DNA from: Phototrophicus methaneseepsis | GTDB taxonomy: Bacteria > Chloroflexota > Anaerolineae > Aggregatilineales > Phototrophicaceae | Direction: 5' to 3' | Length of the DNA: 64,000 nt | NCBI RefSeq assembly: GCF_015500095.1 | Contig: NZ_CP062983.1 | Location: 3,286,001-3,350,000 of the forward strand | Shown here: piece by piece, positions 3,461 through 25,707 of the stretch | Layout of the letters: the number at the start of each line of letters is the position of its first letter | How positions within the stretch are numbered: the first letter of the stretch is position 1 | Notes under the pieces: generated by a model | Databases searched by the model: none | Seen by the model: the letters and a program-made list of their open reading frames with translations, nothing else | Told to the model about the DNA's origin: nothing | Position numbers and translations under genes: made by a program

Positions 3461-5176
3461 TCAGGCTCCTTTGACTTTTATTGGTTGGCGGCGCAAGACG
3501 AGATTGACGAGGTCCTGTAGCTCGGACATGCGCAGAGCATAAGCTGCGACGAAGAAGGCAATCGCCCCCGCGACGGCTTCGATACCGATCTGCGCAACGG
3601 TAAACGCCAACCCTCGATCTCCAATGAACTGATGCCAGCCCATTTCTATGATGATGACGACCAGTGCCATGATCAGACTGGCGATCAACGTTTTGATGAT
3701 GGCCGTTGCTAATTGATTTTCCTGGATACCATGCCAGCGGCGGCGCAATATCCACAAAAGCGAGAGCACTTCAAACATCACGCCAAAGGAGTTTGCCAGT
3801 GCAAGGCCGCTGACGTTGCCGACCTCTGGTTGGAAGCCTGTAATCGGCAGCAGGTTGATGGCGGCATTCATCGCTGTTTGGCGCTCAACCTCACCCACAT
3901 CACTCAGCACGAAAGAGAGCACGAGGTTTATGGTGGCGCCGCCCAAGGCAGCCCATAGCGGTGTGAGTGTGTCTTTATCCGCGTAAAAGCTGCGTGCGAC
4001 GACTTCCAGCGCGGAATGCACGATCAGACCCAACGTGAAGGCCCGTAGGGTGCTATAGACCAACGCAGATGCAGACGCATCGAACGCGCCGCGTTCCAGT
4101 AAGCTGATGAGGGGTTGCCCAATGACGATGAGCCCGATACCTGCCGGAATGCTCGTAATCAGGATGAAGCGCAATGCGCCCGACATGAGCGTCCGTTTAC
4201 CTTTTTCGTCACCAATTTCGCTCAGAGCAGCCAATGATGGAAAAACGACGGTGCCAATGGCAGTGCCAATCAAAGTCTGGGGGATCTGCATCAAGCGCCA
4301 GCCCCAGTCCAATGCGGAAACGGACCCTGTACCCAGGCGAGAAGCGATATTGTTCATCACCAGGAAGTTCAGGCTGAAGACGCCCAGGCCGGCGACACGT
4401 GGCAGCATGAGACGGATCACTCGCCACAGCACCGGATCGTGGAGGTCGAGGCTGGGCCACCAACGCGCGCGATAGTAAATTAATCCTGGTACCTGGATAC
4501 CGAAGTGCATCGCAGCACCCAGTACAGCGCCCACTGCGATCCCCGTGACGCCCATCACAGGCATGAAGAAAATCACACCAATGAGGATGCCCACGTCGAA
4601 CATGATTGGGGCCATAGCAGGTAGCAGAAAGTGATTATGACTTTGTAGGATGCCCATGCAGATGCCGCTCACTGAGAAAATGAGCGTACTCAGGAGCAGG
4701 ATACGCATTAAGTGCGCAGTCTGCTCAATCTGATCGGGTGTAAAGCCCGGTGCGACGACATGCTCGACCATCCATGGCGCGATGAAAAAGACCACTGCGC
4801 TGACGAGTAGCGTTACCGTGAAGATGAAGTTAATAACATGCGTGGCCGTGCGCCATGCACCTTCTTTATCACCCTTTGCCAGGTAACCACTGAAGATCGG
4901 GATAAAAGCATGAGCCAGGGCCCCGCCGGAAATCAGCGTGAAGATCAATTCAGGGATGCGGTTGGCTGTTACAAATGCATCCCATTCCGAACCTACGCCA
5001 AAGGCATTGGCGATAATGACCGTCTGCGCCAAACTAATGACCTTTGCAACAGCAAAGGCAATCATGACGATAACAGTCGAACGTGCAATCTGGCGGTTTC
5101 GGTTTTGTTGGGTTTCTTCAGTCTGGTTGTTGTCTGCTTCAACCATCAACGGTGGCTCGTTTGATAGGCTTGCCAA
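3461..5176 (-). CDS. murJ: Lipid II flippase MurJ (MviN family)
   Basis: A 571-residue polytopic membrane protein with about 14 hydrophobic helices, the length and layout of MurJ. Characteristic stretches include AFGVGSEWDAFVTANRIPE in the first helices, GGALAHAFIPIF, and the RLMLPRVAGLGVFSLN region. MurJ moves lipid-linked peptidoglycan precursor from the cytoplasmic to the outer face of the membrane. A hydrophilic N-terminal extension of about 30 residues (NQTEETQQNRNRQ) precedes the first helix; an internal Met at residue 11 is an alternative start. It follows the C39-peptidase-like gene by 12 bases. Confidence 0.93.
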   Translation of the reverse strand: MASLSNEPPLMVEADNNQTEETQQNRNRQIARSTVIVMIAFAVAKVISLAQTVIIANAFGVGSEWDAFVTANRIPELIFTLISGGALAHAFIPIFSGYLAKGDKEGAWRTATHVINFIFTVTLLVSAVVFFIAPWMVEHVVAPGFTPDQIEQTAHLMRILLLSTLIFSVSGICMGILQSHNHFLLPAMAPIMFDVGILIGVIFFMPVMGVTGIAVGAVLGAAMHFGIQVPGLIYYRARWWPSLDLHDPVLWRVIRLMLPRVAGLGVFSLNFLVMNNIASRLGTGSVSALDWGWRLMQIPQTLIGTAIGTVVFPSLAALSEIGDEKGKRTLMSGALRFILITSIPAGIGLIVIGQPLISLLERGAFDASASALVYSTLRAFTLGLIVHSALEVVARSFYADKDTLTPLWAALGGATINLVLSFVLSDVGEVERQTAMNAAINLLPITGFQPEVGNVSGLALANSFGVMFEVLSLLWILRRRWHGIQENQLATAIIKTLIASLIMALVVIIIEMGWHQFIGDRGLAFTVAQIGIEAVAGAIAFFVAAYALRMSELQDLVNLVLRRQPIKVKGA

Positions 5177-5188
5177 GGTATCCGCCCC

Positions 5189-6703
5189 TTATAATTGGTC
5201 GAGTGCAGCACGTGCGTCATCAAAAGTAGAATTGTACCGAAGGGCCTGCTGGTATTGGGATGTGGCCTGGGCAACCTGCCCCTGGGCTTCATAAGCACGC
5301 CCGCGCCAGTAGTACACTTCTTCCAATTCCGGGGCTGTATTTAGAATTGTGCTGGCTCGCGTCATAAGTTCTTCGTAGCGCCCGGTCTCATAGAGGGCCA
5401 CGAATGGGGCGAATTGATACCAGGGCATACGCCAGGGCAGGCTATAACGCCCAGCCTGCGCATAAGCATTAGCAGCTTCTTCGTAGCGCCCCAGAGCAAC
5501 CAGCGACGTCCCCATATTGAACCACGCAAAGCCATCTTGTGGGTTCGCGGAGGCTTCATCTCGTGCTGTCTGGAAGGCAATTTCTGCCGCTTGTGTTTCA
5601 TCAGCCAGTGGGCCAAGGATTTCCATGACACGGGCTTCTTCTTGTGGCGGATAGATAACGATAAACGTGCGATTGAAGGCGCGCCAATCTTCATCGACTT
5701 CGCTGTATGTTTCATAGACGCCTGCACCGCCTTCACCCGCGCCTAACCAGCTATCATACGCATAGAAGCCCCTGCTTGAGTCTTCATAAGCGACGAGTGC
5801 TTGATAATGCCCTAGCCAATCATTCGCCTCGAACATAATACCACGCTCGATAATGACGGGATATTCGTTGGCGAGTAAGGCCCGTAGTGTGTTGATGCTG
5901 CCCCCCATACGAACAACTGCCTTTAGGTCCGTATACTCATTGACGAAATCAGCCAGTTCATGGGGATTGGTGTTTTTATCTTCTCGGTTTGGACGGATGC
6001 GATCTTTTGCATAATCCTGGTCGTTTTGCCACCCGTAATAGGATAGTGCCATCGTCATTGTGGCGGGACCACAGTTATTCCAGCTTTGTTGTATCCAGCG
6101 GAACCCTGCCAGACGCGTCGAAGCGGGTAAGTTGCTGAGAGACATATTTTGCACAACAGAAGTGGATTCGTTGGTGCCACCACCGACTGCCGGTGGCGCT
6201 TCGACGGTCGCGGTGGGCTCGGACGTTGGGACAGCAGTGGGCGTCCAGGTCAGGGTGAATGTTGGCGACGGCACGACAGCCGCTTCTGTTGGCTCTAGCG
6301 TGGGTTGTGCTGCTTCTGTCGGTTCCCCAGAGGGTTGCGTTGTTGCTTCTGTGGACACGACTTCTGCTCCCGCGGGTGTTGCACTGGCATCAACCAGCGG
6401 CATATTGAGCAAATCCTGCGCTGCCTGGTTAGATTCTGCATCCGGCATCACAGTGGGTAAAACACCCCCTGGTGGCGTTGGCGGCAGAAAACTGCGCATA
6501 AAAGGGGCCATATTAATGACGCGCTGCTGCTGGCTGGGCTGGAGGACCTGCGTAAAGATGAAAATAGCGGCAATAATGCCGATAATCACCAACAAAAACA
6601 GGCCAATCACGCCATAAAATAATATGCGTGGAGGAGCTTGTAATTCACTCCGATAGCCGCTCACTCGCTGCATGCGCGGTTCAGTATCATTGCTGTAGGA
6701 CAT
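5189..6703 (-). CDS. Membrane-anchored C39-like peptidase with C-terminal TPRs
   Basis: A 504-residue protein. One transmembrane helix spans about residues 27-51. A Thr/Pro/Glu-rich linker (about 105-175) is followed by a Peptidase_C39_2-type papain-like domain, with C211 in NNCGPAT, H299 in GHYQALV and D317 in YDSWLG as a plausible triad. Two or three TPR units occupy the C-terminus (about 375-504). The domain probably lies outside the cytoplasm. I chose the ATG at 6701-6703 because a GGAG box lies about 10 bases upstream and the longer reading frame adds 55 residues of untypical sequence. It heads the run that includes murJ. Its substrate is unknown; processing of a peptide or lantipeptide-like leader has no support nearby. 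Confidence 0.82.
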   Translation of the reverse strand: MSYSNDTEPRMQRVSGYRSELQAPPRILFYGVIGLFLLVIIGIIAAIFIFTQVLQPSQQQRVINMAPFMRSFLPPTPPGGVLPTVMPDAESNQAAQDLLNMPLVDASATPAGAEVVSTEATTQPSGEPTEAAQPTLEPTEAAVVPSPTFTLTWTPTAVPTSEPTATVEAPPAVGGGTNESTSVVQNMSLSNLPASTRLAGFRWIQQSWNNCGPATMTMALSYYGWQNDQDYAKDRIRPNREDKNTNPHELADFVNEYTDLKAVVRMGGSINTLRALLANEYPVIIERGIMFEANDWLGHYQALVAYEDSSRGFYAYDSWLGAGEGGAGVYETYSEVDEDWRAFNRTFIVIYPPQEEARVMEILGPLADETQAAEIAFQTARDEASANPQDGFAWFNMGTSLVALGRYEEAANAYAQAGRYSLPWRMPWYQFAPFVALYETGRYEELMTRASTILNTAPELEEVYYWRGRAYEAQGQVAQATSQYQQALRYNSTFDDARAALDQL

Positions 6704-6868
6704 GAGCTTTATCCTGCTCCTATGCAAATCGGCGTCAGTATAACGTATTCGTTTATACGTTCGTACATCGAAGTTCTTAAGAAATGCTGTATTATACGCC
6801 AGTTTGCACGATGTGATAGGGCTCGCGCTTGGTGCTAAACCGACGAAAGCCCGGCGATTGATAATCAT

Positions 6869-8029
6869 ATGAGAGGCTCACGATTGAATACTGAGACGAA
6901 TTTTCATCGAGACACATCTATCGATACCAGAGCCAGCGATGTTTTACGACGTTACCGCAACCAGATTGTCTTAGGCTTATTTATCGCCTTCGCTATTTAT
7001 GTGGTGGTGCTGCTCGTTGCAGATAACCAGCTTCGCCTTGAGACAGACGGTATCCTCGAGACGCTGGCACGGTTCAATTGGGCGCTGCTGGTGCCGATCG
7101 TGGGCTTGCAAGGATTGGTCTTTTTCTTTCGCTGGGTTGAGTGGCATTACTATCTTGGCGTTATTGGTGCACGCGATAAGATGGCCCTACTTGATAGCGT
7201 CCTGATACAGGTAGCGGGTTTTGTCTTGGTTGTGAGTCCAGGCAAGGCTGGTGAATTGTTGAAGTCCGCGCTGGTGAAAGCCAAGACCAATGTGCCGATT
7301 GCTCGTAGCACGCCTGTTGTGCTTGCTGAGCGCGTTGTAGATGGTATCGCCGTGATTGTGATCCTGGTGCTCACGCTTTTACTGGCAAGTGAAACGCTCG
7401 ACCTGGGTACCTATAACGGTGTGGATTACGATCAGATTAGCCGTGCGATTATCTATGGCTCGGCGGCTGTGTTAGCTGCCGGGTTAATCGTTATCCAGAT
7501 TAAACCACTGGCTTATTTTTGCCTGAATATCCTCAATAAAATCCCGCTGTTAGGCCGCCTCTATGAGCCGCTTGTGACGTTTTACGAGAGCAGCCGCGAG
7601 ATTTTTGCTCTGCGGCACGTGCTGCCCATGACATTTGTGGGCGTGTGGGTTTATATCCCCAGTTTATTATGCTTATATCTGATCTTATTAGGCTTTGGTC
7701 TGGAACCAGGTTGGGGTTTGCTGCTGCGTTCAGGGTTTATTATGGGGGTTTCATCAGCGATTGGCGCACTAAGCTTTGTGCCTAATGGGGCAGGTGTAAC
7801 GGAAATATCGAATGTTGGGATGTTGTTAGCCTTTGTTGCACCCCAGCACCCGGAACTGACGCCTGTTGTGGCTGCGGCTGCTGCGCTGTTACAGAGCTTC
7901 TTCCACAAATGGTTTCGGGTGCTGGTTGGGCTTGCTGTGGCCTTTATCTTCCGTAATCGCTTACTTGCTGGCAATCTCAGCGGTGCGCTAGATGAATTGG
8001 ATGAATACGAGCATAAAGAAACGGCCTAG
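6869..8029 (+). CDS. UPF0104/LPG-synthase-TM-like integral membrane protein
   Basis: A 386-residue protein with about eight transmembrane helices and the pattern of the lysylphosphatidylglycerol synthetase transmembrane (flippase-like, UPF0104) family: a PGKAGELLKS-like motif near residues 125-134, an AERVVDG segment after it, and SFVPNGAGVTE near residues 304-314. Members lack the aminoacyl-transferase domain and are linked to lipid or glycolipid transfer. The first ATG has no clear ribosome site; an in-frame TTG at 6884 has AGAGG seven bases upstream, so the protein may be five residues shorter. Its stop codon overlaps that of the convergent PBP-like gene in the shared bases CTAG. Confidence 0.8.
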   Translation: MRGSRLNTETNFHRDTSIDTRASDVLRRYRNQIVLGLFIAFAIYVVVLLVADNQLRLETDGILETLARFNWALLVPIVGLQGLVFFFRWVEWHYYLGVIGARDKMALLDSVLIQVAGFVLVVSPGKAGELLKSALVKAKTNVPIARSTPVVLAERVVDGIAVIVILVLTLLLASETLDLGTYNGVDYDQISRAIIYGSAAVLAAGLIVIQIKPLAYFCLNILNKIPLLGRLYEPLVTFYESSREIFALRHVLPMTFVGVWVYIPSLLCLYLILLGFGLEPGWGLLLRSGFIMGVSSAIGALSFVPNGAGVTEISNVGMLLAFVAPQHPELTPVVAAAAALLQSFFHKWFRVLVGLAVAFIFRNRLLAGNLSGALDELDEYEHKETA

Positions 8030-9504
8030 CGGCTCGCTGTAGGCGCTATCGTAGGACTTGTTTGTGTAGAGCTTGCTTCTTGGGCGACCAGGGCTTCGTA
8101 GGTTGCTAATAACACTTCCTGGGCGATATTGTCGATGACTTCCGTACCGTCTGCTTGCTCCAAAACGATGACGACAGCCGCACCATGGCCGCTGCTCGTC
8201 CGCACAAACCCGATGAACCATGCTTGTGTTTCTTCGCCGGAATACGCCAGCGCGATTTGGCCGCCGACTTCTGTGCCCTGGGGTAAGGAAAGACTGGGAC
8301 GACCTGTTATTTGCAGTGTGTTTTGCATGATGCGCTTGAGCGCGGAAGCACTCGTATCTGTGAAGAAGGGTAGGTTTGTGCCCGGTGTCGCGACATCAAC
8401 CCATGTACCACCCGGTGCTCGTGATGATAGGATGGTATAGGGCTGTGGCGCGTTCCCCTCTAGGGCAATTGCTGAGACCATGCTGGCGAGTGTAATGGGC
8501 GTTACGCTGCGCATACCCTGGCCGGTTGCTTCCTCAACTAGGTCAAGGGCTGTTGTATCAATAGGTGTGCTGGTTGCTTCTGGGGTCGCAATTGGGTCAC
8601 TAAAACCGAGATAAGAGGGTAGCTGGCGATTACCGACGCGGTCCAGATAGTTATTGACTGTTTCCTCACCGAGTTGTTCCGCTAAATCAACAAACGGGGC
8701 AGGGCACCCATAAGCATAATTCTCAACCAGTGTCAGGCTGGTGGTAGGGGGTATCTGTACGCATGTCAGCGTAAGATCGTCAATTTGCACTGAGCGCGTC
8801 GCGTTGCTGATTTTCGTATTCATGTCGATGCCTGCGAGACTGGCCGCAGCAAGCAAGGGGGTGTTCAGGGTGTTCCCTGGTTGATATGAGCCTTGTAACA
8901 CGCGATTGAAGAAAGGATCGTTCGGTGCCTCGATTAGATCGGCCCAGGTTTCATCCAGGGTGTTGGGATCATAGGTTGGCAAGCTGACAAGTGCCAGCAC
9001 ATCCCCCTTAGAGATGCCTAGGACCACTGCGGCGCCGACCTGATCTTGCATGGCGTTAACAGCCGCTTGTTGGATATCTAAGTCAAAGGTCAGTCGTAAG
9101 TCGCTGCCAACAACGGGCCGATGTAAGAAATCCTGTTGCAAGAGGTGATCCCATCCGGCTGGTAGGGTGTCGCCTTTGAGGAGGGCATCATAAGCGGATT
9201 CAACGCCGTTGACGCCGTATCGTAAGCTGTAATAACCCAGTGCGCTGTGCATAGCATCATAGAGATAACGACGCTGAGCGATGCCATCTTCGTCAGAAGC
9301 TGATTCTGCGAGGAGCGCATCGTTTCGATCATATAGTCGTCCCCGCAAAATAGCCGATTCTGCTTCGACAACACGGGGATTATCCTCTCGGTTGAGGATC
9401 GTATCTGGCCCGACGATGCCCCAATAGGCTGCTGCCAGTGCAACGAGGAAGAACGCAACCAGCAAGACGATCATAGTGCGATGGATTTCTCTGGCGAATG
9501 GCAT
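8026..9504 (-). CDS. pbpA: PbpA-like penicillin-binding protein lacking transpeptidase motifs (pseudoenzyme)
   Basis: A 492-residue protein with an N-terminal transmembrane helix (about residues 10-32) and the layout of an actinobacterial PbpA-type class B PBP. The scaffold is clear (ILRGRLYDRNDALLAES, LTFDLDIQQAA, AWFIGF), but the catalytic motifs are gone. The SxxK position (normally GSTFK) reads PGNTLN, with N211 and N214 replacing Ser and Lys. The SxN position reads YGC (265-267). The KTG position reads QIA (416-418). I re-read the SxxK and KTG codons on the sequence, and the frame is open throughout. It begins 1 base after rodA, so the two are coupled. It probably serves as a structural or regulatory partner of RodA rather than a crosslinking enzyme. 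Confidence 0.85.
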   Translation of the reverse strand: MPFAREIHRTMIVLLVAFFLVALAAAYWGIVGPDTILNREDNPRVVEAESAILRGRLYDRNDALLAESASDEDGIAQRRYLYDAMHSALGYYSLRYGVNGVESAYDALLKGDTLPAGWDHLLQQDFLHRPVVGSDLRLTFDLDIQQAAVNAMQDQVGAAVVLGISKGDVLALVSLPTYDPNTLDETWADLIEAPNDPFFNRVLQGSYQPGNTLNTPLLAAASLAGIDMNTKISNATRSVQIDDLTLTCVQIPPTTSLTLVENYAYGCPAPFVDLAEQLGEETVNNYLDRVGNRQLPSYLGFSDPIATPEATSTPIDTTALDLVEEATGQGMRSVTPITLASMVSAIALEGNAPQPYTILSSRAPGGTWVDVATPGTNLPFFTDTSASALKRIMQNTLQITGRPSLSLPQGTEVGGQIALAYSGEETQAWFIGFVRTSSGHGAAVVIVLEQADGTEVIDNIAQEVLLATYEALVAQEASSTQTSPTIAPTASR

Positions 9505-9505
9505 C

Positions 9506-10798
9506 CTAGCGTACTCCTGAAGATAGTCTCAGCAGCAGCCCAACCATGATAAAGCTGACGAGCAAGGAACTGCCGCCATAGCTGAGGAAGGGTAGCGTCA
9601 CGCCTGTGAGAGGCAGTAGCTTAAGGATACCCATCATAATGAGCAGGCTCTGTACACCGATGAGCAAGCCGATCCCCACAGCGAAGAGCGTGTAAAAAGG
9701 ACGCGCCTGATTGAGTAACCCGATGCGTGTAGCCCGCATGACGATGACAGCAATACATATGATCACCACAATCACACCGAGCAGGCCCCATTCTTCTGCG
9801 AGGGCTGCCATGACAAAATCTGAATGCACAACCGGGATATAGGCGGGGGAGCCTTGAGCGACACCTTGCCCAAAGATACCCCCTGCGCCGAATGCCATGA
9901 GGCTCTGTACAATCTGGAAAGCCCGGTTATCCGCATCCGGCCATGGGTTCAGCCAGATATCAATACGCAACTGAACGAGGTCGATCCAAACATATGCCAG
10001 GATGCCAGCCAGCAGCAAGAGCAGCGCGCCGCCGATCATAATCAGTGTGCGACCACTGGCAATATACAGCATTGTCAGGAATACAATGAAGAACAGTGCC
10101 GCTGTACCGAGGTCGCGCTGCCAGATGAGCATGAGTACACACAGGCCCCACATCAGCAAGATAGGTCCGAGGATGCGAATAGGGAATGTCGGTCCACTGT
10201 TCTTAGGGTTGAGCCGCCGCATGATAGGGTATTGTTCGCCCAGGTAGCTTGCCAGGAATGCGATCAGTATCAGCTTGAGCGCTTCTGAGGGTTGGAAGTA
10301 AACACCCGCAAAACCAAGCCACAACTCGGGCCCTGAACCTGATGGATTCTGGCCCAGAATAATGGTTGCCACGAGCAACGCCAGGCCACCAAAGAAGAGC
10401 GTATACCGATAGTACCGCAGCCAGTGCAGCGGTTGTTTGAAGATCGCTGCTGCTAGCATCGCTGCTACAGATATAGCCAACCAGATCGTCTGCCGGTCCG
10501 CAAATGTAGGGGCGAGACGATCAATGATGATAAGGCCCCATCCGCTTAAGAACATAACCAGTGGGAAGAGCACACGGTCACGATGAGGTAGATAACGATT
10601 TAATACCAGGTGTCCGCCAAGAGCGCAGACCATCCAGACAAGAATGTGTAGCCACGGCGCGGCACTGGTCTGTCGTTGGAGGGCTAACGCCACAAAATTC
10701 ACCAGCAGGAACGCCGCGCTGATGATGAGCAAGCGCCGTTCTGCACGATGCGTACTTACCTGCTGCATCTCAGAAACAAGAGGTCTTGTCAGGGTCAT
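9506..10798 (-). CDS. rodA: FtsW/RodA/SpoVE family (SEDS) peptidoglycan glycosyltransferase
   Basis: A 430-residue polytopic protein of the SEDS family, which polymerises glycan strands from lipid II. Signature regions are present: QPSEALKL (about 169-176), WQRDLGTAALFF (about 226-237), the NPW loop (284-286), and HSDFVMAALAEEWG with D327 at the position of the essential Asp. These suggest an active enzyme. It begins 9 bases after mtnP and is followed after 1 base by the degenerate PBP gene, the usual order for a SEDS polymerase and its partner. RodA is preferred over FtsW because of the nearby fhaA/fhaB and pbpA-type neighbour, but the two cannot be separated firmly. Confidence 0.92.
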   Translation of the reverse strand: MTLTRPLVSEMQQVSTHRAERRLLIISAAFLLVNFVALALQRQTSAAPWLHILVWMVCALGGHLVLNRYLPHRDRVLFPLVMFLSGWGLIIIDRLAPTFADRQTIWLAISVAAMLAAAIFKQPLHWLRYYRYTLFFGGLALLVATIILGQNPSGSGPELWLGFAGVYFQPSEALKLILIAFLASYLGEQYPIMRRLNPKNSGPTFPIRILGPILLMWGLCVLMLIWQRDLGTAALFFIVFLTMLYIASGRTLIMIGGALLLLLAGILAYVWIDLVQLRIDIWLNPWPDADNRAFQIVQSLMAFGAGGIFGQGVAQGSPAYIPVVHSDFVMAALAEEWGLLGVIVVIICIAVIVMRATRIGLLNQARPFYTLFAVGIGLLIGVQSLLIMMGILKLLPLTGVTLPFLSYGGSSLLVSFIMVGLLLRLSSGVR

Positions 10799-10807
10799 AA
10801 TATGCGT

Positions 10808-11686
10808 CTATAGCTTCATTGTACGGGCGATAATCGGGTACAGCTTGTCGATTTCGCTTTGTGGGATGTGCTCACGCGCAGTCATGATAGCCCCATCAAG
10901 CGCCGTGTGGGAGGCTGTGGTGTGGTCTTCTTCCACGTGTTCGACGGTATACGCAAGCGCTTCCTGTGCCAGGCGAATATTCCTGCTGAAGGTATTGGTC
11001 ACCATCTCTACGCTCACAGGCTCTTCGTGCCAGACGTCGTAATCGGTGATGTGCGCCATAGATGCATAGGCCATCTCGGCTTCTCTTGCCAGGAACGCTT
11101 CTGGTACGGTTGTCATGCCGATGATGTCGCAGCCCCATTGACGGAAGATGTTGCTCTCTGCCCGTGTGGCGAAACGTGGTCCATCTTCAATGATGAACGT
11201 GCCACTACGGTGTACAGTCCCTCCGGCAATTTCAACAGCATGTGCGACGACTTCTCGCAGGTCATCATCAAACGGCTGTGCCACACCAATGTGTGCGACA
11301 ATCCCATCCTCAAAAAATGACCGATCGCGCCGACCAATTGTGTAATCGAAGAGTTGGTCCGGTACGACAATATGCCCTGGCGCGTAATCCTCCCGCAGGC
11401 TACCACACGCATTAACGGCGATACAATAGCGTACGCCCAGGGTTTTCAGGGCATAGATATTGGCACGTTGGGGGATGGTCGCCGGAGAATGGACATGGCC
11501 GCGACCATGGCGCGGAACGAAAGCGACGCGTTTACCTCTCAGCGTGCCAACAGTGATGTCGTCGCTTGGTTTGCCAAAAGGCGTATCGATTGTGTATTGT
11601 GTGATGTCCGTGATTTCCGGCATGTTGTACAGGCCGGAGCCACCAATGACGCCAATTTTGACGATTTCTCCTACCGGGTTGCTCAT
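10808..11686 (-). CDS. mtnP: S-methyl-5'-thioadenosine phosphorylase
   Basis: A 292-residue PNP/UDP phosphorylase family protein. IGVIGGSGLYNM opens the domain, FVPRHGRGHVHSP forms the phosphate-site region, and NACGSLRE, MTTVPEAFLAREAEMAYA and HITDYDVW are typical of MTAP enzymes. It cleaves methylthioadenosine to adenine and methylthioribose-1-phosphate in methionine salvage; an MTA-like purine phosphorylase with broader specificity is possible. I start at MSNPVGEIVK (ATG 11684-11686) because the residues upstream are not family-like. It lies directly ahead of rodA-pbpA, an unexpected partner for cell wall genes. Confidence 0.88.
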   Translation of the reverse strand: MSNPVGEIVKIGVIGGSGLYNMPEITDITQYTIDTPFGKPSDDITVGTLRGKRVAFVPRHGRGHVHSPATIPQRANIYALKTLGVRYCIAVNACGSLREDYAPGHIVVPDQLFDYTIGRRDRSFFEDGIVAHIGVAQPFDDDLREVVAHAVEIAGGTVHRSGTFIIEDGPRFATRAESNIFRQWGCDIIGMTTVPEAFLAREAEMAYASMAHITDYDVWHEEPVSVEMVTNTFSRNIRLAQEALAYTVEHVEEDHTTASHTALDGAIMTAREHIPQSEIDKLYPIIARTMKL

Positions 11687-11735
11687 GGTTGTTGCCTCAT
11701 CGTTTGCAGGATGGTCACTTAAGAATGTTATTGGC

Positions 11736-12527
11736 TTAAAAGCTGCTACGCGTTTCGCCACCATCAACAGGGAGTGCAATCCCTGTGATGAACCCCGCCG
11801 CGGGCGAACACAGGAAGACAGCGGCATTGGCGAATTCTTCCGGCGTGCCGATTCGGCCCAATGGGATGCTCTCACCTGCGCGTGCTTTTTCTTCTTCCGG
11901 TGTGGAATTGTTCTTTGCAGCGCGTGCTTCCATCAAACGCTGGATGCGTTGAGTATCTGTGGTGCCCGGCAAAATGCTGTTGAAGCGGATGCCTTCTGTG
12001 GCGTATTCCAACGAAAGTGTTTTCATGAGCCCGACGACAGCAGGTCGTATCGTATTCGAGAGCGTTAGATTATGAACGGGCTGCCGCGCAGCAATGGAAA
12101 CAATCGCCAGGACGGCGGCGCGCGGCGATTGTTTGAGATGGGGCAGGGCGTGCTTAATGAGATTCACATGGGCGTGCAGCGTTAAATCCGTAGCGTTATG
12201 CCAATCGGCCATATCAAAATCGTCGAATGTGCCAGCCGGTGGCCCTCCTGCATTCGTGACGAGGATGTCCAGGCCGCCCAACATCGTATGAGCATTGTCA
12301 ATGAGCCGCTTAATAGCTTGATCGTCTGTGACGTCCGCAGCATGTGTAAAGACAGGGTTGCCTGTTTCTTCAACAATTTTGCTGGCTGTATCCTGTAGAT
12401 CGGGTAAGCTGCGGCTGCTGATGACCACACGAGCGCCTTCTAAGCTGAAGCGACGCGCTGTGGCGGCCCCCAGGCCAGCGCTCGACGCTGTTACAAGCAC
12501 ACGGGCATTTTGTAAGCCTAAATCCAT
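11736..12527 (-). CDS. Short-chain dehydrogenase/reductase lacking the YxxxK motif
   Basis: A 263-residue Rossmann protein. The N-terminus (MDLGLQNARVLVTASSAGLG) gives a cofactor loop with TASSxGLG, NAGGPPAG is the central strand motif, and the C-terminus ends GFITGIALPVDGGE, as in FabG-like SDRs. The catalytic Ser is probably in VSIAARQP, but where YxxxK is expected the sequence reads NLTLSNTIR. A subgroup of SDRs with an LSNxxR pattern is known, so this is a divergent family and not decay. The substrate is unknown. I chose the ATG at 12525-12527; upstream codons overlap the gmd-like gene region and look non-coding. Confidence 0.8.
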   Translation of the reverse strand: MDLGLQNARVLVTASSAGLGAATARRFSLEGARVVISSRSLPDLQDTASKIVEETGNPVFTHAADVTDDQAIKRLIDNAHTMLGGLDILVTNAGGPPAGTFDDFDMADWHNATDLTLHAHVNLIKHALPHLKQSPRAAVLAIVSIAARQPVHNLTLSNTIRPAVVGLMKTLSLEYATEGIRFNSILPGTTDTQRIQRLMEARAAKNNSTPEEEKARAGESIPLGRIGTPEEFANAAVFLCSPAAGFITGIALPVDGGETRSSF

Positions 12528-12568: not shown

Positions 12569-13579
12569 TTATTGATTGTTCTTTACGCGTTCTATATCTG
12601 CTTTGACCATTAAGTCGATCAATGCCTGGAAGCTGATTTCTGGCTCCCATCCTAATTCGGCTTTGGCTTTGGCATAGTTACCCCGCGAAGCAGCAATTTC
12701 GGTCGGACGCATGAAGGCGGCGTCACTTACGACATGATCTTCCCAGTTAAGGCCAACGGTGTCAAAGGCGACTTGGCATAGATCGCGCACAGTATAAGCT
12801 GTGTTGGTGCCAATGACGTAATCCTGCGGTGTATCTTGTTGGAGCATCAGCCACATCGCTTCGACAAATTCTTTGGCATAGCCCCAGTCGCGCACGGCGT
12901 CCAGGTTGCCAAGTTTAACTTTGCCTTCTTGCACCAGCGGCTGGCCGTTCTCATTAACGGGCGGATGCTTGATGTCACAATAGATACAGGCGACCGCCAT
13001 GGTTACTTTTCGTGTGACGAAGTGCAGGCCGCGTCGTGGGCTTTCATGGTTAAACAAAATGCCGCCACAGGCGAACATATCGTAAGATTCGCGGTAGTTG
13101 CGCGTAATGAGGTGAGAATAGAGTTTGGCAATGCCATAGGGGTTATTCGCCAGGAAGGGCGTGGATTCGTCAACTTCTTCTTGGTCAACACCGCCGTAAA
13201 TTTCGCGGCTGGTTGCCTGATAAAAACGCGCATCTGGCTTATGGCGGCGAACGGCTTCTAGCATGCGGATCGTCCCAACACCTGTAATTTCTGCTGTGAC
13301 GATAGGCTGATGCCAGCTATCCGCTGGCACGGACTGTGCTGCTAGATTGTAAACTTCATCCGGCTGATACTTTGCGACGAGGTTATTAAGCGTGTCGCTG
13401 TCCATTAGGTCACCGTGTTCCAGGGTAATCTTGCCGATGAGGTGACTTATATTCGGATGATGATAATGGGTGGAACGTCGGGCCATGCCGATCAAGTTGT
13501 ACTCTTTGGCAACCAGTAAATCGGCCAGATAAGAACCGTCCTGGCCAGTAATCCCCGTAATAAGTGCCGTTTTTGTCAT
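12569..13579 (-). CDS. gmd: GDP-mannose 4,6-dehydratase-like NAD-dependent epimerase/dehydratase (copy 1)
   Basis: A 336-residue extended [23 protein letters not shown] is the Gmd-type nucleotide loop, ATSREIYGG carries the TS/E catalytic motif, NPYGIAK the YxxxK motif, and [11 protein letters not shown] and NLDAVRDWG follow as in Gmd. Such enzymes convert GDP-mannose to GDP-4-dehydro-6-deoxymannose. It differs from the second copy at 24697-25692: the RRSTHYHH segment replaces RRTSTVYYE, and a short insert (about residues 205-220, PPVNENGQP) interrupts the region after the catalytic Lys. The substrate may therefore differ. It lies between fhaB and the SDR gene, away from the glycan cluster. 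Confidence 0.8.
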   Translation of the reverse strand: MTKTALITGITGQDGSYLADLLVAKEYNLIGMARRSTHYHHPNISHLIGKITLEHGDLMDSDTLNNLVAKYQPDEVYNLAAQSVPADSWHQPIVTAEITGVGTIRMLEAVRRHKPDARFYQATSREIYGGVDQEEVDESTPFLANNPYGIAKLYSHLITRNYRESYDMFACGGILFNHESPRRGLHFVTRKVTMAVACIYCDIKHPPVNENGQPLVQEGKVKLGNLDAVRDWGYAKEFVEAMWLMLQQDTPQDYVIGTNTAYTVRDLCQVAFDTVGLNWEDHVVSDAAFMRPTEIAASRGNYAKAKAELGWEPEISFQALIDLMVKADIERVKNNQ

Positions 13580-13631: not shown

Positions 13632-14072
13632 CTATTCTAGCTCAATACGAAAGCTGAGATTGCCAATGCCAATAACGTCTCCTTGGGTAATGATGACGGG
13701 TGCTTCGGTTTTGTCGCCATTGAGCAAGGTGCCATTACGGCTATTACGGTCTTCCAACCACCATTGGTTGTTGCGTAAGGCAATCGTAGCATGCTCACTG
13801 CTGGCAAAGTCATCATTAATGACGATGGTATTTGTGGGGGAGCGTCCCAGGCTTGTCAGTGGCATCAGGGGGTAGGTCTGCCCCGTCTCTAGCAAGTTAC
13901 CCTCGATGTTCGTCAGCGCAACGAGGCGCCCAAAACGACGTCGGTAAGACTGTGTTTGGCCGGTGGCGCTACGATAGTCGCGCATGAGCACGAAGAAAAG
14001 GACGCCCAAAAATGCAATTAAGAGGGCTCCGGATACAATGCGGAGCAGGAAAAGAACGACATCAATTTCCAC
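13632..14072 (-). CDS. fhaB: FHA-domain membrane protein FhaB-like
   Basis: A 146-residue protein with one N-terminal transmembrane helix (about residues 5-30) and a C-terminal forkhead-associated domain. The domain shows LGRSPTNTIVI, a SSEHA element in place of the usual SRxHA, and DRNSRNGTLLNG. FHA domains bind phosphothreonine, usually on targets of Ser/Thr kinases of the PknB type. No such kinase or its phosphatase is in the window. It begins 9 bases after fhaA and, by analogy with actinobacteria, would link phosphorylation to the RodA/PbpA cell wall machinery. The loss of the conserved Arg in the SRxH element may weaken phosphopeptide binding. Confidence 0.85.
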   Translation of the reverse strand: MEIDVVLFLLRIVSGALLIAFLGVLFFVLMRDYRSATGQTQSYRRRFGRLVALTNIEGNLLETGQTYPLMPLTSLGRSPTNTIVINDDFASSEHATIALRNNQWWLEDRNSRNGTLLNGDKTEAPVIITQGDVIGIGNLSFRIELE

Positions 14073-14081
14073 AGAGTTGCT

Positions 14082-14864
14082 CTATCCGTCAACTGGATCT
14101 AATTGGGAAGTGGTGGAAGTCGTGCGAAAACCAGGGTTTTCATCGACCATATACAGTAACGTGCTTTGCCCGATCTTGATGACATCCCCTGGCTGTAAGC
14201 GGTGTTCCGTAATGCGCACCCGGTTGACAAATGTGCCACTGCGGCTGTGGACGTCAAACAGGGTATAAACGCCAAATCGCAAGCGTATCTGGACGTGATG
14301 GCGTGATACAAACTGGTCATCTAGGATGATGTCATTATCACTGCCCCGGCCAATATTAATGATGGACTGTGTCAGAGGGAAATTGCGATCCCCATTAATC
14401 AGGAGTTGAGGATTACGCTGCGGCGGGGGCGCTGTCGGTGGTTGGACAGGCTGCATCGCCATCGTGCTCTTGATCTGGCTTTGGGAATGGCTGGCTTTAA
14501 TATCAACCTGAGTTGGATCTTTGAGAATTGGGTCCGGTCGCAGCTCAACCGTGAGTTGGTTCAGGATGCGATAACCTGTATTGGCGGCTAGTTCAGTGAG
14601 ATGGGTCGTCAACACGTCTGAAAAATCAGGCCGTTTATTGTTGAGTGTCTGGTAGGTTTTGGGATCAATGCGTATTTCGTAAAAGTCTGGCGCGATGGGG
14701 CGTGCATCGCCGTCTGTAGACATACGGAGGTTGTCTTCCATATTGCGAACCAACTTGAGCGCAATATCGTGCGGGCTGACGGGCTTGCGCAGGAAAGATG
14801 TAAAGACACCTTCGACAAGCCGCTCTAGATGCGTTTCCAGGTAGACAATTCGATTATCGCTCAT
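14082..14864 (-). CDS. fhaA: DUF3662 and FHA domain protein FhaA-like
   Basis: A 260-residue cytoplasmic protein. The N-terminal part (about 1-120, with ETHLERLVEGVFTSFLRK at the start) matches the DUF3662 domain of FhaA. A Pro/Gln-rich linker follows, then an FHA domain (about 165-245) with IGRGSDNDIIL, SRHHVQ and SRSGTFVN, so the phosphothreonine-binding residues are intact. In mycobacteria FhaA regulates peptidoglycan synthesis via MurJ (MviN). I start at the ATG at 14862-14864, because a strong promoter places the transcription start at or next to this codon; a Met three codons upstream lies inside the promoter's initiation region. Confidence 0.87.
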   Translation of the reverse strand: MSDNRIVYLETHLERLVEGVFTSFLRKPVSPHDIALKLVRNMEDNLRMSTDGDARPIAPDFYEIRIDPKTYQTLNNKRPDFSDVLTTHLTELAANTGYRILNQLTVELRPDPILKDPTQVDIKASHSQSQIKSTMAMQPVQPPTAPPPQRNPQLLINGDRNFPLTQSIINIGRGSDNDIILDDQFVSRHHVQIRLRFGVYTLFDVHSRSGTFVNRVRITEHRLQPGDVIKIGQSTLLYMVDENPGFRTTSTTSQLDPVDG

Positions 14865-14871
14865 AGCACGC

Positions 14872-14901
14872 ATTATAATGGACAGATTGCAGCCCTGCCA
14901 A
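14872..14901 (-). promoter_or_regulatory. Strong sigma70-type promoter of fhaA, probably giving a leaderless mRNA
   Basis: On the minus strand TTGGCA (14901-14896) and a perfect TATAAT (14877-14872) are separated by 18 bases. Seven bases separate the -10 box from the ATG at 14864, so transcription should start at or within a base or two of the start codon. No Shine-Dalgarno sequence can fit. Confidence 0.7.

Positions 14902-24696: not shown

Positions 24697-25707
<1,011 letters not shown>

Follow-up and report, generated by a model that had tools for sequence, protein, structure and literature searches.

A SEDS polymerase gene is followed by a gene for a PbpA-type protein that lacks transpeptidase motifs

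We analyzed a 64,000-nucleotide stretch of the Phototrophicus methaneseepsis genome (contig NZ_CP062983.1, positions 3,286,001 to 3,350,000; hereafter the window, from whose first base all coordinates are counted). Two genes on its minus strand, separated by a single base, encode a SEDS polymerase and, after it, a PbpA-type class B penicillin-binding protein (PBP) in which the serine-transpeptidase motifs SxxK, SxN, and KTG are missing. We refer to the second protein as the pseudo-PBP. The two genes and the sites discussed below are:

9506-10798, minus strand: SEDS polymerase (FTSW_RODA_SPOVE), 430 amino acids, intact open reading frame
9818-9820, minus strand: SEDS catalytic Asp D327 (HSDF), located by orthologue alignment
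8026-9504, minus strand: pseudo-PBP, a PbpA-type class B PBP without catalytic motifs, 492 amino acids, intact open reading frame
8863-8874, minus strand: SxxK site, N211-T-L-N214, located by phmmer and family alignment
8761-8763, minus strand: C248, proposed to pair with C267, located by family alignment
8701-8709, minus strand: SxN site, G266-C267-P268, located by family alignment
8251-8259, minus strand: KTG site, Q416-I-A418, located by phmmer and family alignment

The 430-residue protein matches FTSW_RODA_SPOVE with an E value of 2e-71, and Asp occupies the D327 position in 109 of 110 aligned SEDS orthologues, the remaining row being masked (X). With the domain and catalytic Asp that characterize SEDS proteins, it is a predicted glycan polymerase. 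In the 492-residue protein, Pfam identifies PBP_dimer_2 (PF21922, residues 54-122) and Transpeptidase (PF00905, residues 157-464, E value 3e-22), both above cut-off. An AlphaFold2 model built with 76 relatives reached a predicted local distance difference test score (pLDDT) of 92.3 and a predicted template modeling score (pTM) of 0.90. The top Foldseek match of this model is Mycobacterium tuberculosis PbpA (E value 2.4e-29); VIA-align superimposes it on chain 3lo7_A of that protein with Z 39.9 and a root-mean-square deviation of 2.4 over 387 residues. The confidence of the model and this match point to a transpeptidase fold without its chemistry. A dimerization domain, a transpeptidase fold, and a gene beside rodA in an fha cluster are all features of the PbpA subfamily; the motif set is the feature that the protein lacks. 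The original prediction, made from the sequence of the window, had described a PbpA scaffold in an intact frame one base from a RodA that keeps its essential HSDF Asp, and these observations bear it out.

To place the motif sites, we set the register by phmmer alignment to M. tuberculosis PbpA and 4mnr, together with a family alignment. NTLN at the SxxK site and QIA at the KTG site were confirmed, as had been read from the sequence. SxN is also lost, but its replacement had been given as YGC, which begins one residue too early; the true site reads GCP. No second SxN and no KTG or KSG occur anywhere in the pseudo-PBP sequence, and the single other S..K is SALK at residue 387, inside a predicted helix. 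The possibility that intact motifs lie elsewhere in the protein can thus be set aside, and with the set lost at all three sites, the pseudo-PBP is predicted not to be a serine transpeptidase.

Loss of the motifs extends across the Anaerolineae

We examined relatives within the class Anaerolineae and the phylum Chloroflexota, the lineage of the source genome, scoring a protein as dead if it had none of the three motifs and as active, or intact, if it had all three. The window protein was searched in 298 class genomes; the best-hit places of 116 genomes, chosen by score, were read and, with the window, made up 117 places. No motif was present in 101 of these, all three were present in 14, and two were odd or cut: L096, where KTG alone is left, and L131, which ends at a contig edge. 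Apart from these two, complete motifs come as all three or not at all, and the motif state is therefore bimodal. In L096 (genome G006), a low-complexity run of Glu, Leu, and Gly replaces the stretch from SxxK to SxN, and a near-identical sister, L049, is active; the oddity is probably an assembly fault.

We also scanned named genomes and read the best 80 of 135 confirmed loci, nine of which repeat genomes of the class sample. All 80 were dead, a count biased toward dead forms because the scan pattern held YQ, which is typical of them. A congeneric genome (L039, 49% identity) is dead as well, with STMQ, GCP, and QYA at the three sites. This congener and the dead state of most of the class sample rule out a sequencing error or a strain-specific change, and the intact relatives are older branches rather than sister strains. 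The motifs are thus lost in most of the sampled clade but not throughout it.

Outside the class, a phylum search of 400 genomes yielded 52 places in 51 genomes, hand-picked from the best hits, and 51 of the 52 were intact. A SEDS gene lay beside or was fused to the PBP gene in 37 places, 36 of them intact; the other 15 had no adjacent SEDS (none in 12, apart in three) and are for that reason less sure orthologues. The single dead protein, L305 (genome G307), is a fused SEDS-PBP from a genome whose contamination is listed at 8%. Either the motifs were lost a second time, independently, or the contig is a stray one.

The chemistry appears to have been lost once, and the protein has been kept

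In a SEDS tree of 151 rows, the active or dead state changes twice; one change falls at the root of the dead clade, the other at L305. A second tree, built carefully from 66 selected rows, likewise gave two changes, with a support of 95/85 for the dead clade and with active class members branching below it. Both trees leave out rows whose SEDS is absent, distant, or short; L096 was unscored and L131 was scored as active. Fusion of the SEDS and PBP genes switches state nine times in the larger tree and six times in the smaller.

The ratio of nonsynonymous to synonymous substitution rates (dN/dS) was 0.068-0.368 over 76 dead-protein pairs, which are not independent and number 66 once repeated genomes are removed. 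It was 0.06-0.42 in the transpeptidase half of these proteins and 0.057-0.258 overall across 10 active pairs. The window protein is in no pair, its nearest relative, at 49% identity, being too distant. For mean conservation, dead rows (123, plus 45 shortened ones) and 65 active rows were aligned jointly. In dead rows, the pedestal scores higher than the transpeptidase domain (0.554 versus 0.477); in active rows, the order is reversed (0.507 versus 0.556). Higher conservation of the pedestal in dead rows is expected if a partner role stays and catalysis is released.

One explanation for the missing motifs is decay, in which transpeptidation is no longer selected for and the protein is in the course of being lost. 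The transpeptidase domain of dead proteins is indeed less conserved than that of active relatives, the PBP part is shorter in some lineages (median 395 amino acids, versus 495 in active proteins), and 164 of the 181 class genomes outside the fetched set have fewer than three SEDS genes. However, dN/dS is well below 1 in 76 of 76 dead pairs and stays at 0.06-0.42 in the very half that lost its motifs, and after a single ancient loss the dead form diversified across the class, still in long open frames. We reject decay, mainly on the dN/dS values, and regard it as barely credible. The sequences instead indicate that the chemistry was lost once, early in the class, with one outlier, and that selection has retained the protein since. 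Absent catalytic residues, a retained fold, and purifying selection (measured on dead relatives) are the features of a pseudoenzyme.

Dead proteins share a residue signature around the old active site

For site-by-site comparison, we used 182 dead rows, in which nine repeated genomes count twice (173 without repeats), and 65 active rows. Residues at the SxN site are missing in 46 of the 182 dead rows, one of which (L153) is just a contig-end fragment. In the 136 dead rows that have these residues, C267 is invariant, C248 and C267 are both present in 135, and the Asn of SxN is replaced by Pro in 133. The two cysteines, which are the sole cysteines of the window pseudo-PBP, occur together in 14 of 65 active rows. 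In the joint alignment, only R39, D41, Q208, C248, C267, and P268 reach at least 90% in dead rows while falling below 50% in active rows. The residue most often found at the old KTG Lys is His (75 of 182 dead rows); the window protein has Gln.

Since C267 lies at the old active site in every dead row with residues there, acyl-transfer chemistry could in principle have been kept with this cysteine as the nucleophile, aided by the His or Gln that replaces the old Lys. Its co-occurrence with C248 in 135 of 136 rows is instead what a disulfide would give, and many active relatives (30 of 65) have C267 too, as the x of SxN. Moreover, the old Lys position is Gln in the window protein rather than His, and the SxN site is absent altogether from 46 dead rows. 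We consider a cysteine nucleophile very unlikely and propose that C248 and C267 form a disulfide, based on their joint occurrence.

A second possibility is that the dead domain became a ligand sensor, in which unreactive binding of a stem peptide or nascent glycan in the old cleft gates the SEDS protein. Purifying selection on the domain, the newly conserved positions surrounding the former active site (Q208, C248, C267, and P268), and the frequency of His at the old Lys position are all consistent with such a role. Most of the 46 dead rows without SxN-site residues nevertheless still have a SEDS protein, indicating that the cleft is not needed everywhere, and we judge the sensor unlikely.

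Dead PBP genes mostly lie beside SEDS genes or are fused to them

At 100 fetched dead places, SEDS and PBP are encoded in this order in one reading frame in 62 and by adjacent genes in 30. In the 80 named loci, 69 pairs are adjacent, four are fused, three are apart, and four are without SEDS. A model of one fused protein (L210) gave a pTM of 0.76, with PBP chains in the 50 fold matches listed. L210 may be two overlapping genes read through rather than a true fusion, because its near relatives have separate genes. A natural SEDS-PBP fusion frame of 967 amino acids in L298 (genome G422) has all three motifs intact.

The SEDS-pseudo-PBP pair is a third, accessory pair

The source genome has three SEDS genes in all, and the two others also keep the catalytic Asp (in L060, the motif reads HTDF). 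Of these two, one is located some 3 kb from a PBP gene with all three motifs (L001), and the other some 4 kb from L004, a PBP with SxxK, KTG, and SVN. We tentatively take these two pairs, by position and general background, to be FtsW-FtsI and RodA-PBP2. Two more PBPs, L002 and L003, each have SxxK, SCN, and KTG. Of four class A frames, L005, L007, and L008 show SxxK and KTG; the fourth, L277, shows no motif within the stretch read. The genome also encodes seven YkuD proteins. Intact-motif PBPs and candidate L,D-transpeptidases, which had been suggested as a check, are thus both present.

At least three SEDS genes occur in 108 of the 117 genomes in which a third-pair PBP was read, versus 17 of 181 other class genomes. 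Since so few of the other genomes have three or more SEDS genes, the pair is accessory. The original prediction had concerned this one gene pair; beyond it, we find that the pair is a third, accessory SEDS-class B PBP pair and that the loss is class-wide, with natural fusions.

Neighboring genes

The pair lies in a cluster whose other members recur in the named loci, many of which are clipped by contig and flank ends, limiting the counts given here:

14082-14873, minus strand: FhaA-like protein (FhaA_N and FHA), 58 of 80 named loci
13632-14072, minus strand: FHA-domain protein, FhaB-like by position, 59 of 80
10808-11875, minus strand: PNP_UDP_1 gene of the nucleoside phosphorylase superfamily, located between the fhaB-like gene and the SEDS gene, homologue in 66 of 80
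5189-6868, minus strand: C39-like cysteine peptidase domain with TPRs, downstream neighbor, 29 of 80
3461-5176, minus strand: MurJ/MviN lipid II flippase, downstream neighbor, 28 of 80

A PPIC peptidyl-prolyl isomerase gene is present in 49 of the 80, and many named loci have the order PPIC, FhaA, FhaB, nucleoside phosphorylase, SEDS, pseudo-PBP. In the rest of the phylum, homologues of the two FHA proteins are encoded near active PBPs as well (29/51 and 32/51), so the locus appears to predate the loss of chemistry.

The C39-like protein is encoded between the pseudo-PBP and MurJ genes. Its triad-like residues were compared in 29 relatives: the Cys (NNCGPA) is present in all 29, and the His and Asp in all 28 that cover them. 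From these residues, the protein is apparently an active cysteine enzyme beside a dead serine enzyme. An LPG_synthase_TM gene on the plus strand (6869-8029) converges on the pseudo-PBP gene and overlaps its 3′ end by four bases (8026-8029). Two similar-looking genes of the GDP-mannose dehydratase type lie on the minus strand about 11 kb apart (12569-13579 and 24697-25692); Pfam was run on the first only.

Discussion

We propose, with a probability of about 0.7, that the pseudo-PBP is a pseudoenzyme retained as a dedicated structural or allosteric partner of a third, accessory SEDS polymerase, with cross-linking carried out in trans. In this model, a PbpA-type class B PBP gave up serine transpeptidation in a single event early in the history of the class. 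The SEDS protein, frequently part of the same fused chain, would be held by the transmembrane helix and pedestal of the PBP, which would probably also switch polymerization on. The resulting strands would be cross-linked by other PBPs or by L,D-transpeptidases, and the neighboring FHA proteins could provide regulation. A PBP kept as an activator or scaffold, with cross-linking done elsewhere, had been suggested from the outset, and it fits four findings: the retained SEDS Asp, purifying selection on the dead protein, higher conservation in the pedestal than in the transpeptidase domain, and the other transpeptidases in the genome.

Several observations weigh against this proposal or stand beside it. 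Purifying selection also acts on the transpeptidase domain, which thus probably has a role that the pedestal alone does not explain. The active fusion in L298 indicates that fusion is not tied to loss of catalysis, L210 may not be a fusion, and at the fetched dead places SEDS is apart in four and no SEDS open reading frame lies in the stretch in four. Coevolution between SEDS and dead PBPs (155 pairs, effective number of sequences 109) placed eight of the top 20 pairs in the pedestal, which makes up 77 of the 435 usable columns; the top pairs form no cluster, however, and the signal still includes phylogeny. Many class genomes lack a third SEDS, one dead protein (L305) lies outside the class, and the less sure orthologues there enter the comparison. 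Family f9 is placed differently by the 151-row and 66-row trees. Some catalytic residues persist: Ser at position 211 in 27 of 182 dead rows, though never with Lys, the Ser of SxN in five, and the Lys of KTG in two.

It is also conceivable, but rather improbable, that polymerization by this SEDS protein has been permanently uncoupled from serine transpeptidation in most of the class, with cross-links in its glycan made by L,D-transpeptidases or by the adjacent C39-like cysteine enzyme.

The role of class B PBPs beyond cross-linking has so far been argued from engineered mutants. Here, a natural, class-wide experiment appears to have been performed, in which catalysis went once and the partner was kept ever since, often fused to the polymerase. 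That motif-free PBPs are under selection and paired with polymerases suggests that such proteins can serve purely as polymerase partners. The single-chain SEDS-pseudo-PBP proteins offer a panel for polymerase assays and structures in which activation could be studied apart from transpeptidation, and a partner-only role predicts that the SEDS complex is indifferent to beta-lactams. A SEDS-class B PBP pair is a known kind of system; what is new here is that the class B PBP is a natural pseudoenzyme. In the part of the open-licence literature that we covered (titles and abstract beginnings, with subscription papers outside it), we found neither a natural motif-free SEDS partner nor a natural SEDS-PBP fusion described.

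The pseudo-PBP resembles M. tuberculosis PbpA in its fold, in its PBP_dimer_2 and transpeptidase domains, in its place after rodA, and in having FhaA/FHA genes upstream. M. tuberculosis PbpA, however, is acylated by beta-lactams, according to the titles of structures 3upn, 3upo, and 3upp, and has SxxK, SxN, and KTG, all of which are gone in the window protein. As described in extracts of the papers cited here and below, fhaA, fhaB, rodA, pbpA, pknA, pknB, and a phosphatase gene form one operon in mycobacteria, where FhaA binds the flippase MviN (PMC11898655). Unlike this operon, the locus has no kinase or phosphatase among the nine window neighbors scanned.

Two mutants provide a functional parallel. 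Clostridioides difficile SpoVD S311A still allows asymmetric division in part, for which it needs its SEDS partner, and catalysis by Bacillus subtilis PBP2b is dispensable because PBP3 can supply transpeptidase activity (PMC12713402). As far as these extracts go, a class B PBP without catalysis still serves its SEDS partner in both cases, as we propose here; those proteins are engineered point mutants, whereas the loss in the Anaerolineae is natural and kept across the class. The pair is also like RodA-PBP2 in joining a SEDS polymerase to a class B PBP. Activation by the PBP is, in the extracts, a property of RodA-PBP2, in which the conformation of PBP2 activates RodA (PMC6207328; PMC10257715). 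In RodA-PBP2, the transpeptidase is active and polymerization is coupled to cross-linking; here, one of the two activities is absent. Finally, the RodA-PBP2 fusion used in vitro is artificial (PMC6207328), whereas the SEDS-pseudo-PBP fusions are natural.

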